A stretch of 41,418 bases of DNA from Candidatus Aminicenantota bacterium (GCA_022865785.1 JALHTJ010000127.1:1-41418), one strand, 5' to 3'; shown: positions 9,441-33,113, numbered from the stretch's first letter. Translations and numbers: made by a program. The notes: generated by a model from the sequence alone, not told the origin.

Positions 9441-10904
9441 TCACTTGCGGAATTCTTTTAACAATTCCGAAGCCAGAAACCATTTTCGGTATTCCAGCCC
9501 GTGAATGTAATTGTCGATGATCTTCCGGGCCACGGGTTTGTTGCCTTTTAAAAGGAAAATAAATTCTTTTTCGTGGTTTTTCACATCGCCGAATAAAAAA
9601 TCCTCAAAGTTGCGCCAAACTTTCTGTGTTTTTTCGATCCGGACTTTGTATTGCCTGTCGACCACGTCGGAAATTTTGGCATATGTGTTGAAGGCGTGGC
9701 CGGCATCTTCAAGAGCCAGAGCTGGAAGTGGTGAGAAGTGGTTTTTTAGCGCGCTGTCGGCGTTTTCCCGGCTGTAACCGTCAGGAGCTGCGCCCATGGA
9801 TACATACCAGGGCGAAAAGGCGTTGCTGTCCGGGCGGCGCAGGGATATCCAGATCAGGCTGGAAATCTCGACGGGCATCCAGCCTCGTATTTGGGCAACA
9901 AAGGAGTATTGGGTGGTTTCAGTGCAGATAGTGCGGTTGTTGCTGGAGTTGGGCGAGCCATTTTTATAATGGTTGCTGCTATCGTACTTACTTCCTTCAT
10001 AATGGTCGCGCAATACCCGGAAAAGGTCGTTCAGGCGGATACGGCGCCGGGGTTTGAATGAAAATGGCAATGGGTCTTCCAGTTTGAGTGCTTTGGCGGC
10101 CAGCAAATTGGTACCCTGCCATTGCCGCAAAACGTTCTTTATGTCGGTGAAATTGTTTGGATTTGAATAGACCCTGGCGAAATTGAATTCGCCGTCCTTT
10201 TGCGGATTGAACCAACCCCGGCCCACGGCGTATTCAATGATGTCCGCTGCGCCCTGGAAATTCTCGCGATCTTTCAGGTCCACGGCAGTAATGGTGTAGC
10301 GATTGGCGATGACCGCCACTTCGTTGTCAGGAACACGTTTGGCGACCCAGTGTCTGCCGTTGACCGCGTGTAAAAGCCAACCTTCGCGGGCATCGGCGAT
10401 GATGTAGGTCCGTCCCGAGGAATTGTACCCGTGCTGGGAGATCAATTCGCCGGCAATGCGTACCCCTTCACGGGCCGTATGCGCCCGTTCGGCGACAAGA
10501 CGCCTCAGGCTGAAGCCGATGCCGCCTGCAAACAGTTCGGGCTTGTCTTCGCGCGATAAGCAGGCATTGGAGGTCACGGCTACCCCGTATTCGCTGACGT
10601 AGGTATCGGCAAAATCGCTTTCCGGGATCTCCAGCCACAACAGACCGGGAACGTTAGCAGTTTGGGGAAGTACAGTGCCGCTTTTCAAGGTGAAGACACT
10701 ATCACGCCGGTGTTCCCGGGCCGGGACTTTGTAGATGTTGACCAATAGCCGGCCACGGTTGTCTTCATTGTGGGCCAAAAGCACCGAACCGTCGGCCGTG
10801 GCGTCCTTTCCGGTCACAATGGTGAAGCAGTTGAGGTTTTCATCAGTCGCCAGCAGCCAGCCGGCCCAAAAAACTATTAGCATGAAAATAATGCTTTTCT
10901 TCAT
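9441..10904 (-). CDS. C69/U34 family dipeptidase, exported
   Basis: Signal peptide MKKSIIFMLIVFWAGWLLA, then N-terminal-nucleophile region CFTIVTGKDATADGSVLLAHNEDN; Met at 10904 chosen. Confidence 0.85.
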   Translation of the reverse strand: MKKSIIFMLIVFWAGWLLATDENLNCFTIVTGKDATADGSVLLAHNEDNRGRLLVNIYKVPAREHRRDSVFTLKSGTVLPQTANVPGLLWLEIPESDFADTYVSEYGVAVTSNACLSREDKPELFAGGIGFSLRRLVAERAHTAREGVRIAGELISQHGYNSSGRTYIIADAREGWLLHAVNGRHWVAKRVPDNEVAVIANRYTITAVDLKDRENFQGAADIIEYAVGRGWFNPQKDGEFNFARVYSNPNNFTDIKNVLRQWQGTNLLAAKALKLEDPLPFSFKPRRRIRLNDLFRVLRDHYEGSKYDSSNHYKNGSPNSSNNRTICTETTQYSFVAQIRGWMPVEISSLIWISLRRPDSNAFSPWYVSMGAAPDGYSRENADSALKNHFSPLPALALEDAGHAFNTYAKISDVVDRQYKVRIEKTQKVWRNFEDFLFGDVKNHEKEFIFLLKGNKPVARKIIDNYIHGLEYRKWFLASELLKEFRK

Positions 10905-29403: not shown

Positions 29404-29741
29404 GGGGGCTGCACTCCTATGGCAGGTTGGCATGATTATAGCATTCCCAGCCGGATTTACCAATTACCGGCAGATTTTTCACTAACTTAGAGGAAATCGG
29501 AAGGAGGATCGGGAGTTCACAGCCGAAAGAATTAATTCAGTGAAATATCAATTAATCAAACTGCGCCACCCCAATGTTCGTAATGCGTAAGGCGTGATGC
29601 GCCAGGAAGGATCGAAAAATTGCCGGTTTTTCTAACTTTTGTCTTTCTCATCCTCGCTTGACCCCAGGGGAGGCGAAAAGGCCGGAATTTCTAGTAAATG
29701 AAAGAGGTTTTTCAATGAGATCAGGGGATGTTCAGGAGAAT

Positions 29742-30464
29742 TTAATCGATTGCTTCTATTTTTTTTACCATGGCGCTGGCTTTCATGGACATGGGGCTTA
29801 GCATTCCGGCCAGTTTTTCGAATTGATCTCTGGCTGCTTGCTTTTGACCCTGACGCAGCAGTACGAAACCCTTGTAATAAAGCGCTTCGTCAAAATAGGC
29901 TGGATCCATGGCGCGGATGATGGCATCGAATATTTCGCCGGCTTTGTCCGCTTCGTCCTCGCCAAGATAGCAAATGGCGCGGAAGAATTCGATCTTGGGA
30001 TAGGCGGCTTCCTCCATGAGGGGTCCTTCAAGCTGGTTCAGGGCCGGGCGGAACTGTCTTTCTTGGAGATATTTCATGGCCCGTGAAAACTTTGCCTCAA
30101 TGGTCGCACCGTTTTCCGGAATACTCCTCAGTTCGCCCTGGTGGTATGGGGGAATTTCAAATGCCGAAATTTCCAGAAGCAGGCGGGTTTGCCGTTTCTG
30201 CTGCACCAGCAGAACGGAAAACAGGATGAGCAGGAAAAGTGAAGACATGACCAGTAGTGGTTTGAAAAGTTTCAGGACAAAAACCCGCGGCTTTTCCTCC
30301 AGGGTAATACGGACATCTTTATTTTGCAGTGCTTCATTCAGTTTCAACCCGAGAAAGCACTTTCGGCATTGGAAAAAATGCTCTTCAAATTTTTCGCGCC
30401 GGGGTTCATTTATTGTTTCTTGCAAATAGGCATCAATCAGGTTTTGAAATTCATTGCATCTCAT
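29742..30464 (-). CDS. Membrane anti-sigma factor: zf-HC2-like N-terminus, one TM, TPR-like C-terminus
   Basis: CNEFQNLIDAYL…FEEHFFQCRKC, TM LLVMSSLFLLILFSVLLV, helical repeats afterwards. Confidence 0.78.
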   Translation of the reverse strand: MRCNEFQNLIDAYLQETINEPRREKFEEHFFQCRKCFLGLKLNEALQNKDVRITLEEKPRVFVLKLFKPLLVMSSLFLLILFSVLLVQQKRQTRLLLEISAFEIPPYHQGELRSIPENGATIEAKFSRAMKYLQERQFRPALNQLEGPLMEEAAYPKIEFFRAICYLGEDEADKAGEIFDAIIRAMDPAYFDEALYYKGFVLLRQGQKQAARDQFEKLAGMLSPMSMKASAMVKKIEAID

Positions 30465-30479
30465 GTTGCCCTCATCACC

Positions 30480-31031
30480 TTAATATAACTTTTTGCGAAA
30501 AATCTCGTTTTTTATTTTTTTTATGGCCCGCTGTTTGCGGACACTGATGTAATGGTTGGAACGGTTAATCATGTCTGATATTTCAGTGATTTTCTTTTCC
30601 TGCAGGTAGAAGGCATTCATAATAAGCCGGTCTATTTGCGGCAGGTCCTTGATCAGCCGGTTCAAAACCTCGCTCAGCTTCTGATTTTCCATCCTTTCGG
30701 TTTCGGTGAAATCGTAAGTCATTTCGCAGACCAAGCTGACTTTTTGCCGGATTTCATTGTTTTTCCTCTGCTTGTAGAAATAATTGTAAAGCACCCGTTT
30801 GGCGATGCCGAACAGGAATGGTGCGATCCAAACTGCGCTCGTCATCTTGCCCTGGTCAAGTCCGCGGAAAAATGCGCTGAAAACCTCTTGTACCAAGTCT
30901 TCATAATTATTCTCGCCCTTGATGCGGTTGCGAAAATACAAAAAAATGCGCGGATTGAATGTTTCGATCAGTTTTTTTTGCGCTTGCGGGTCATGGTTGC
31001 ACAATTTTTCAAAAAAGTGGGCGCTGTCCAT
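30480..31031 (-). CDS. ECF-type RNA polymerase sigma factor
   Basis: NNYEDLVQEVFSAFFRGLDQ (region 2), LPQIDRLIMNAFYLQEKKITEISDMINRSNHYISVRKQRAIKKIK (region 4). Confidence 0.9.
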   Translation of the reverse strand: MDSAHFFEKLCNHDPQAQKKLIETFNPRIFLYFRNRIKGENNYEDLVQEVFSAFFRGLDQGKMTSAVWIAPFLFGIAKRVLYNYFYKQRKNNEIRQKVSLVCEMTYDFTETERMENQKLSEVLNRLIKDLPQIDRLIMNAFYLQEKKITEISDMINRSNHYISVRKQRAIKKIKNEIFRKKLY

Positions 31032-31034
31032 CTT

Positions 31035-31427
31035 TCAGGGCAGTGGATGCAAATCCTTTTCCAGAAAATTGTTGCTGAAATCGGATTCGGGGATTGCTTT
31101 TTCCACGTTCACATCCACCCTGATCTTCAGCGCCTTACCGGCCCTGAAATTGGTCTTGAATATAATAAAACTGTTTTTTAAAAAAATGGTGGGGTCAATG
31201 ACTTTAATCTTATATTCGGCCCGTTTTACGCTATTGATCGCCAGCTTCAGAAAAATCTTTTCCCGGGTTTGCAGAGGGAATTGGTAATCCTGGCTGGAAG
31301 AATTTTCAATTTTCAAGGCAATGAAGCCGTCCTGAAGCACCAGGATGTCACTGATTTTGAAATCCGGCACTTCTCCGGCCTGCAAAAGCATCAAAGCCGG
31401 CATCAGAAAAAACGACAATATTTTCAT
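31035..31427 (-). CDS. Small exported protein, CARDB-like
   Basis: Signal peptide MKILSFFLMPALMLLQAG; DFKISDILVLQDGFIALKIENSS…VDVNVEKAIPESDFSNN resembles CARDB strands; 3 nt upstream of sigma gene. Confidence 0.6.
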   Translation of the reverse strand: MKILSFFLMPALMLLQAGEVPDFKISDILVLQDGFIALKIENSSSQDYQFPLQTREKIFLKLAINSVKRAEYKIKVIDPTIFLKNSFIIFKTNFRAGKALKIRVDVNVEKAIPESDFSNNFLEKDLHPLP

Positions 31428-31486
31428 TGTGGCCACCCTCAGAATACATACAGATAATAAACCAATATCTCAAATATAACAACCGA

Positions 31487-31515
31487 TTGCAAAAAAAAAC
31501 GTTATGGCCTATAAT
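31487..31515 (+). promoter_or_regulatory. sigma70-type promoter TTGCAA-N17-TATAAT for the CHAT gene
   Basis: -10 31510-31515, ATG at 31524. Confidence 0.7.
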
Positions 31516-31523
31516 TTTTGCCG

Positions 31524-33113
31524 ATGAAGAAGATAGGTCTGGCATGGTTTTTCCTTTTGTTGATGTGGTCGCTGCCGGCTTCGGAGCCTGCTATTCACGG
31601 AAAGGGCTTGCCGCGGTTGAAGAAAGATTTTTCCAAAATCATCTGCCGCTTGCTCAGCGGCTTTGAACTGCGCCGCGAGAGTCGATTTTTGCAGGCAGCG
31701 CTTTTTTTCAGCGAGATCAGGTCCCATCCGCTTTGGGAAATGACCTGGGGTAAACGCAGGCAATCGCTGGCAGCCGAACAAAAACTGCTGAAAGCTAGCG
31801 CCCTGCTCTGCAGTCATCTGCGTAGCGATACTTACCTGTCCAAAAAAAGCGAATGGAATCTATCCCTGCTGGCAATGGATTATTTACGCATGGCAGACCG
31901 TGTTCAGGTGCCGGCGCTCAAGGCGGCACTGTGTCCGCCTGATGGTTGGGAGATCGGCCGGGTGCAAAAACAACTAGAGGCCGGGCAGGTGCTGCTGAAG
32001 TACGCTTTACTTGAAAACCGCATACTGGTATTTTTCATCGCTGACGGCGCGGTCGGATATGAATTTCTCTCGGCCAGTACGGCGCATGCCGTGCAAATGA
32101 TCGACCGGCTTTCCGAACCACTGGAGGATTTAGCCAACGGCAGGGTCGATTATCTGCGCATTCATTTTGACATGGAACTGGCGCAACGGCTTTACAATAT
32201 TTTCCTGAAAAAGGCGGTCGAGCGTTTTCCTCATTGCGACGAGCTTTTCATCATTCCCGATCAGGAACTTTTCAAGCTGCCTTTTGAAGCCCTGGTTATG
32301 GGTTTTAACAAAAACTTCCAGCAGGACGATGTTTTGTTTTCTGAGTACAAGGCAGCCGATTATGTCATTCAAAAATACACGGTTTCGTATTATCTTTCCC
32401 TTGCCGATTTTTTACGGAAATTCCCTGGCTCCAAGAGTCATCCGCTCACTCTGGCCGCTTTCGGCCAGCCGCTTATCACGCAGGCACCGAAAAACGCACA
32501 TTTCCCGAACCAGGCAAGTGTCAGCTACATAGCCGAAATCCCTTCAACGCGCCTGGAGATACTGAACCTGGAAAAAATGTTTGCCGTTTCGCGCCGGCGC
32601 ATATTCCTGGGCGCCAGTTTCAATCATGCCAATTTTGTCCGCTTCGCGTCCCAGGCCAGGCTTATCCATATCGCTACCCACTTTTTTACCAACCACGAGG
32701 ATCCGTCCTGCTCGGCTTTTCTGTTTTCCTCGACCGCCACATACCCGTCTATGTGCCAGGCCAAACAGATTCTCAAACTGCGTCTGCAGGCTGAACTGGT
32801 AATCCTCAGCGCCTGCGAAACTTCGGAAAAAAATTTACTGGGCCTCAAGTCGTTGAGCGGCATGACGGCCGCTTTTCGCCAATCCGGGGTGCGGGATCTG
32901 ATAGCCAGCCTCTGGCCTGTGGATGAATTCAGTTCCCTGATCGTGCCGTTATTCTACGGGGAATACCTGCAGAGCGGGGCTTGCGCCGCGGCCTTAAGAA
33001 AGGCCAAATTGATTCTTTTCGACAAAACCATTCCCATCCAGGACAATGTCCGGCTCTCATTGGCCCATCCCTTCCTGTGGGCCAATTATGTCCTGGTTCA
33101 TTTCTATCGCTGA
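31524..33113 (+). CDS. Exported CHAT-domain (caspase-like) protease
   Basis: Signal peptide MKKIGLAWFFLLLMWSLPAS; LIHIATHFFTNHEDPSCSAFLF (His) and LVILSACETSEK…GMTAAFRQSGVRDLIASLWPVDE (Cys) typical of CHAT. Confidence 0.88.
   Translation: MKKIGLAWFFLLLMWSLPASEPAIHGKGLPRLKKDFSKIICRLLSGFELRRESRFLQAALFFSEIRSHPLWEMTWGKRRQSLAAEQKLLKASALLCSHLRSDTYLSKKSEWNLSLLAMDYLRMADRVQVPALKAALCPPDGWEIGRVQKQLEAGQVLLKYALLENRILVFFIADGAVGYEFLSASTAHAVQMIDRLSEPLEDLANGRVDYLRIHFDMELAQRLYNIFLKKAVERFPHCDELFIIPDQELFKLPFEALVMGFNKNFQQDDVLFSEYKAADYVIQKYTVSYYLSLADFLRKFPGSKSHPLTLAAFGQPLITQAPKNAHFPNQASVSYIAEIPSTRLEILNLEKMFAVSRRRIFLGASFNHANFVRFASQARLIHIATHFFTNHEDPSCSAFLFSSTATYPSMCQAKQILKLRLQAELVILSACETSEKNLLGLKSLSGMTAAFRQSGVRDLIASLWPVDEFSSLIVPLFYGEYLQSGACAAALRKAKLILFDKTIPIQDNVRLSLAHPFLWANYVLVHFYR

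Follow-up and report, generated by a model that had tools for sequence, protein, structure and literature searches.

An exported CHAT protease linked to an ECF sigma factor and its membrane anti-sigma factor in Candidatus Aminicenantes

DdvA of Myxococcus xanthus, the closest precedent for the system considered here, is the anti-sigma factor of the extracytoplasmic function (ECF) sigma factor DdvS, and its activating signal was not known in 2015 (PMC4374960). DdvS controls an island of CBASS (cyclic oligonucleotide-based antiphage signalling system) and CRISPR (clustered regularly interspaced short palindromic repeats) genes (PMC12288465). In the type III-E CRISPR system Craspase (Cas7-11/Csx29/Csx30/CASP-sigma), a CHAT protease is tied to a sigma factor and to the protein that inhibits it (PMC10028731). 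CHAT, subtilase or carboxypeptidase genes have also been reported near ECF54 sigma factors, for which proteolysis was proposed and which were described without an anti-sigma factor (PMC8999054). Here we analyze a locus of four genes (positions 29742 to 33113) in a 41,418-nucleotide (nt) stretch of a Candidatus Aminicenantes genome (Acidobacteriota; GCA_022865785.1, JALHTJ010000127.1:1-41418), the whole of which is referred to below as the window. Related genomes in named collections are classed as Candidatus Aminicenantes or Acidobacteria bins.

All four genes were found where an earlier note, made from the DNA sequence, had placed them. Three lie on the minus strand, transcribed in the order small exported protein, ECF sigma factor and membrane anti-sigma factor, with 3 nt between the first two genes, and the CHAT gene diverges from them on the plus strand:

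29742..30464, minus strand: membrane anti-sigma factor, 240 amino acids (aa), with a zf-HC2 domain, one transmembrane helix and a predicted periplasmic TPR domain at residues 119-237 (zf-HC2, AlphaFold2, Foldseek)
30480..31031, minus strand: ECF-type sigma factor, 183 aa (Sigma70_r2 above cut-off; NCBIfam TIGR02937 sigma70-ECF, E 8e-17)
31035..31427, minus strand: small exported protein, 130 aa, with 13 orthologues beside the sigma factor gene; the start is most likely the ATG at 31427
31524..33113, plus strand: exported CHAT cysteine protease, 529 aa (PF12770; signal-like N-terminus MKKIGLAWFFLLLMWSLPAS; AlphaFold2/Foldseek)

The locus shares with DdvS/DdvA (PDB 8rot and 8rw5) an ECF sigma factor, a transmembrane anti-sigma factor and a CHAT domain outside the cytoplasm, and it is of the DdvS/DdvA-like kind except for the fusion. 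In DdvA, the anti-sigma factor and a C-terminal CHAT domain form one 991-residue chain, whereas in the window they are encoded by two divergent genes; here the CHAT protein bears a separate signal peptide, the anti-sigma factor a TPR domain of its own, and a small exported protein comes in addition. Because DdvA unites anti-sigma factor and CHAT in one protein, it provides gene-fusion evidence that the two work together. We consider it very likely that the four genes constitute one envelope-to-transcription signalling module, in which the exported CHAT protein is functionally linked to the ECF/anti-sigma pair. For the specific proposal that the periplasmic CHAT protease cleaves the anti-sigma factor and thereby frees the sigma factor, sequence comparison and structural modeling suggest a probability of about 0.45. 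In its general outline this interpretation had already been offered in the earlier note; it is a reasonable hypothesis, partly supported and strengthened by comparative data, to which our analysis adds DdvA as the closest precedent, a second form of the module found across the class and the phylum, and a candidate cut site.

To our knowledge, the majority of bacterial CHAT proteases, like many ECF anti-sigma factors, have neither a known partner nor a known signal or cut site. The locus and its relatives tie the two kinds of protein together across a whole phylum. If the proteolytic reading is true, caspase/separase-type proteolysis of a sigma inhibitor, at present known from Craspase, would be a widespread means of envelope signalling and not peculiar to CRISPR systems; the module would also offer a ready model for the fused anti-sigma factor DdvA.

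The CHAT gene is the only one in its genome, and its product matches Pfam PF12770 with an E value of 8.4e-43 (147 bits; cut-off 24). We prefer the start at ATG 31524 over the alternative TTG 31518 because close orthologues all begin with MKK or MKR. A signal-like N-terminus is kept in the orthologues, including the longer ones of other genera, and occurs in most of the CHAT proteins compared, TPR forms among them, in line with the export anticipated in the earlier note; several CHAT relatives of other families carry a C-terminal transmembrane anchor. These features and the structural models support placing the CHAT protease outside the cytoplasm, where the anti-sigma TPR domain is also predicted to lie. 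No TPR repeats were recognised in CHAT proteins of the window's genus; the longer orthologues of other genera have N-terminal extensions that are TPR-like where recognised. In loci L077:6835-9420, L085:6275-8848 and L107:5848-8448, exported CHAT proteins have an N-terminus resembling a right-handed beta-helix (NVPHNYPTIKGAIK... type). In L067:8920-11502 a frameshift or an assembly error displaces the CHAT reading frame close to the end, with a second fragment at 10323-10523. Two close relatives of the window CHAT are divergent from other genes: L044:192-4645 from a Ser/Thr kinase gene, and L050:308-2923 from PP2C phosphatase and FHA genes.

A direct sequence search of the short window CHAT against solved structures gave no match, so that a fold search and a wider alignment were needed. 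The AlphaFold2 model (mean pLDDT, the predicted local distance difference test score, 82.5) was most similar by Foldseek to the TPR-CHAT protein of Craspase (E 5.6e-14), as the analogy drawn in the earlier note would suggest, then to DdvA (E 2.8e-11), and separase was also matched. With a profile of the wider CHAT family against PDB, DdvA came first (8rot, 'CHAT domain-containing protein', E 3.3e-12), followed by Craspase and then separase. The His and Cys positions are kept in DdvA when it is aligned with the wider CHAT family. In the window protein, the predicted catalytic residues and a third residue discussed below are the following:

32679..32681, plus strand: codon of catalytic His386 (IATHFF), invariant in 14 orthologues and 14 diverse CHAT proteins
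32814..32816, plus strand: codon of catalytic Cys431 (LSACE), invariant in the same two sets
32925..32927, plus strand: codon of Glu468, the fourth residue after Trp464 (WPVDE), aligned with the Asp of WxVxD in other CHAT proteins

The His/Cys pair, noted earlier as intact, is thus invariant, and this supports the view that the protein is an active enzyme.

The anti-sigma factor has the features of membrane proteins of the zf-HC2 (ZAS-like) kind, namely a zinc site, an adjacent ECF sigma factor and a single transmembrane helix. The zf-HC2 model exceeded its cut-off in the window protein and was matched by all 14 scanned orthologues; the zinc site (C3, H29, C33 and C36; H-x3-C-x2-C) is invariant, and TPR models matched up to 9 of the 14 in the Pfam scan. 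AlphaFold2, run with a 14-sequence alignment (mean pLDDT 84), predicts zinc-finger helices at residues 1-48, a long transmembrane helix at 62-99, no secondary structure at 100-118 and a confident TPR bundle at 119-237. Among the nearest solved folds found by Foldseek are the periplasmic TPR proteins BamD, YbgF and YfgM. The zinc finger has to contact the sigma factor in the cytoplasm, which would put the TPR domain outside, as the earlier note had held. A cytoplasmic zinc-finger domain and a periplasmic TPR domain are therefore supported, and none of the observations that the note had named as fatal to its interpretation (missing co-occurrence, a lost His/Cys dyad, a cytoplasmic CHAT or TPR domain) was made.

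Craspase itself is cytoplasmic, RNA-triggered and CRISPR-bound, whereas the window CHAT is exported and its genome is without cas1. Moreover, Csx30 is not a protein of the zf-HC2/transmembrane/TPR type, as the window anti-sigma factor is. We therefore did not assign the locus to Craspase, on the grounds of the missing cas1 and the export of the CHAT protein. The absence of cas1 from the genome, in which Cas7-11 itself was not searched for, agrees with the CRISPR-free character proposed earlier. PADLOC defence-system models gave no match to the window proteins. ECF54, compared by its description, likewise has a CHAT gene in the context of an ECF sigma factor; it differs in that no anti-sigma factor is described, whereas the window has a clear membrane anti-sigma factor.

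How well is the association of these genes conserved? Across 16 genomes of the genus, some of them incomplete, CHAT and anti-sigma factor occur together in 11 and are jointly missing from the other 5. The 11 genomes share one gene order, which genera g9 and g6 also have, and genus g3 has the module without the small exported protein, which was not found there. Together with the occurrences in the wider phylum described below, this bears out the co-occurrence on which the earlier interpretation depended. Within the genus the flanking genes are also syntenic, so intragenus linkage alone proves little, and one could argue that these genes are functionally unrelated and adjacent merely because their order was inherited. 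Against this, the module stays together in other genera amid different flanks (in g9 and g3, represented by L070, L071 and L073, the window's flanking genes were not found). It was also lost as a unit in L076, whose flanks are 91-94% identical to the window at the DNA level: one deletion, corresponding to window positions 29466-32914, took the anti-sigma factor, the sigma factor, the small protein and most of the CHAT gene. An independent recurrence with another sigma/anti-sigma type and the fusion in DdvA speak in the same direction. The explanation by inherited order is thus largely refuted, and we regard it as very improbable. The remnant in L076 (L076:2771-3094, JAHIKI010000065.1) consists of the last 66 CHAT codons joined to the M16-peptidase flank.

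The recurrence takes a second, wider form, here called type II. In other families of the class, exported TPR-CHAT proteins of about 1000 aa are encoded next to an operon that pairs a sigma factor from another ECF group with an anti-sigma factor, whose periplasmic domain appears Ig-like from reading the sequence and has no Pfam match. Searching 100 genomes for the type II sigma factor gave 49 strong matches, 42 of them within 4 kb of a TPR-CHAT gene; none of the 19 weaker ECF matches in these genomes was near one. In 38 of the 42 linked cases, a CHAT gene follows downstream in opposite orientation at a distance of typically about 700 nt, just enough for the anti-sigma gene to fit in. In other classes of Acidobacteriota, 16 of 20 sampled loci carry a sigma factor, a transmembrane anti-sigma factor and CHAT, mostly on one strand. 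The linkage of CHAT and anti-sigma factor is far beyond chance.

The co-directional arrangement of CHAT and anti-sigma factor in many of these other-class loci is what would be expected of a stoichiometric complex, and DdvA of Myxococcus does hold both in one chain. The module might accordingly be a split DdvA, with the exported CHAT protein as a non-proteolytic or self-cleaving sensory subunit that binds the anti-sigma factor outside the membrane and controls it conformationally. We consider this unlikely, given that the catalytic His and Cys are invariant in stand-alone CHAT proteins and a pure scaffold would not need the dyad. Extended to the phylum, cleavage by CHAT would mean that exported CHAT proteins of Acidobacteriota act as site-1 proteases on ECF anti-sigma factors, with a separase-like specificity for Arg, in a transmembrane signalling pathway of caspase type that is free of CRISPR. 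They would cut at the conserved juxtamembrane Arg, and the TPR and Ig-like periplasmic sensor domains would be interchangeable; this generalization is tentative, and we would put it at somewhat less than even odds. Other Aminicenantia (L079, L080, L082 and L086) have an exported TPR-CHAT gene on either side of the sigma/anti-sigma operon, and in several of these genomes a glycosyltransferase gene intervenes. L135:6447-8654 encodes a type II anti-sigma factor in which a TPR-rich part of 640 residues follows the transmembrane helix; no CHAT gene is nearby. Among plasmid CHAT genes, three records with listed genes (Pseudosulfitobacter, Sphingobium and Nostoc) have no sigma or anti-sigma gene listed alongside; two more records carry no annotation there.

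If CHAT acts as a protease on the anti-sigma factor, a conserved motif of the latter is a candidate for the cut site:

30123..30134, minus strand: codons of E111-L-R113-S114, juxtamembrane E-x-R-(S/G/N/D), candidate CHAT cleavage site (orthologue alignment, AlphaFold2)

The motif occurs between the transmembrane helix and the TPR domain in 21 of 21 anti-sigma factors of type I, the form found in the window. Its E and R are invariant, it falls in the stretch devoid of predicted secondary structure, and several of these proteins have an indel directly after it. We hypothesize that the cut is made in this loop after Arg113. In type II, a hydrophobic-Arg-small motif is present within 30 residues after the transmembrane helix in 42 of 59 CHAT-linked anti-sigma factors and in 4 of the 16 zf-HC2 proteins without such linkage (Fisher's test, p 0.001), a contrast that is only suggestive because the linked proteins are homologous, the controls are unrelated and only 16 of these were usable. 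On the protease side, CHAT proteins have an acidic residue four positions after a conserved Trp (W-x-V-x-D/E), Asp in type II and Glu468 in the window. The aligned motif is LWDVTD, with Asp, in separase, whereas Csx29 of Craspase has WKVRS, with Ser and hence without the acidic residue. The kinase-linked CHAT of L044 has Gln here. Separase shares with the window protein the CHAT/clan CD fold in addition to the acidic residue; it differs in being a eukaryotic intracellular protease of cohesin with very weak sequence similarity.

Several observations weigh against cleavage by CHAT at this site. In G016, and apparently also in G021 and G027, the sigma/anti-sigma pair sits apart from the closest CHAT gene, which in G016 and G021 is divergent from Ser/Thr kinase or PP2C/FHA genes. 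The separated anti-sigma factors (of G016 and apparently of G021 and G027) retain E-x-R nonetheless, and therefore the motif may serve something else. Genus g23 has mostly ERK or ERQ in place of hydrophobic-R-small, and common ancestry alone could explain part of the type II contrast. The pocket argument is drawn from separase, in which an acidic S1 pocket receives the P1 Arg, and the CHAT-separase alignment behind it is short and weak (E ~0.005). Among plasmid CHAT genes, three records with listed genes (Pseudosulfitobacter, Sphingobium and Nostoc) have no sigma or anti-sigma gene listed alongside; two more records carry no annotation there.

With these reservations, the proposed sequence of events would be as follows. 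The sensor of an envelope signal would be the anti-sigma TPR domain, CHAT or the small exported protein, and CHAT would then cut the anti-sigma factor in the exposed juxtamembrane loop after Arg113 (GELR|S). The TPR domain would thus be lost, leaving roughly 25 residues protruding from the membrane, and short extracytoplasmic stubs are the usual kind of site-2 protease substrate. An M50 site-2 protease, for which the genome offers three clear PF02163 matches and one fragment, would then cut the stub within the membrane and free the sigma factor. CHAT would take the site-1 role that DegS has for RseA, through a separase-like Arg-specific enzyme. The window shares with RseA/DegS/RseP (sigmaE) and RsiW (sigmaW) a single-pass anti-sigma factor with its N-terminus inside and a site-2 protease in the genome; DegS is a PDZ serine protease, whereas the site-1 enzyme proposed here is a CHAT cysteine protease.

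The regulatory sequences between the divergent genes bear on the direction of signalling:

31487..31515, plus strand: sigma70-type promoter of the CHAT gene, TTGCAA-N17-TATAAT (conservation, consensus scan)
31454..31482, minus strand: promoter-like site of the small protein-sigma-anti-sigma operon, TTGTTA-N17-TATTAT (conservation, consensus scan)
31448..31471, minus strand: conserved element GAGATA-N6-TANNAT-N2-GTAT overlapping the operon promoter (conservation)

The CHAT promoter is kept in 11 genus members and is less perfect in two members of another genus. In the window (31510-31524), 8 nt separate the end of its -10 box from the ATG, and the distance is 8-10 nt across the genus, so the CHAT transcript is probably leaderless. 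No ECF-like site was recognised for CHAT by promoter conservation and consensus scan. Having its own conserved sigma70-type promoter and no such site, CHAT does not look like a simple target of the sigma factor. This tells against a reversed arrangement, in which CHAT is an effector on another envelope or extracellular target. The sigma/anti-sigma pair would then monitor CHAT activity or act on the partners of CHAT, or CHAT would be kept inactive by the TPR domain. The CHAT genes beside kinase or phosphatase genes in relatives show that partnership with other regulators is possible, but the reversed arrangement also gives no reason why an acidic pocket residue should go together with a conserved Arg, and we judge it improbable, slightly more so than a split DdvA.

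The operon promoter is weaker than the CHAT promoter and lies back-to-back with it. The GAGATA element, which overlaps this sigma70-like promoter, was for that reason not called an ECF promoter. It is a single site in its own genome at up to one mismatch; a search for a sigma regulon through it returned only the locus itself there and about the control frequency elsewhere in the genus. As to the small exported protein, the earlier label 'CARDB-like' did not survive a Pfam search with 11 orthologues at E 0.1, in which neither CARDB nor any other family matched convincingly; only the C-terminal signature PESDFSNN resembles CARDB. The protein has conserved KRAEY and PE...NN motifs.

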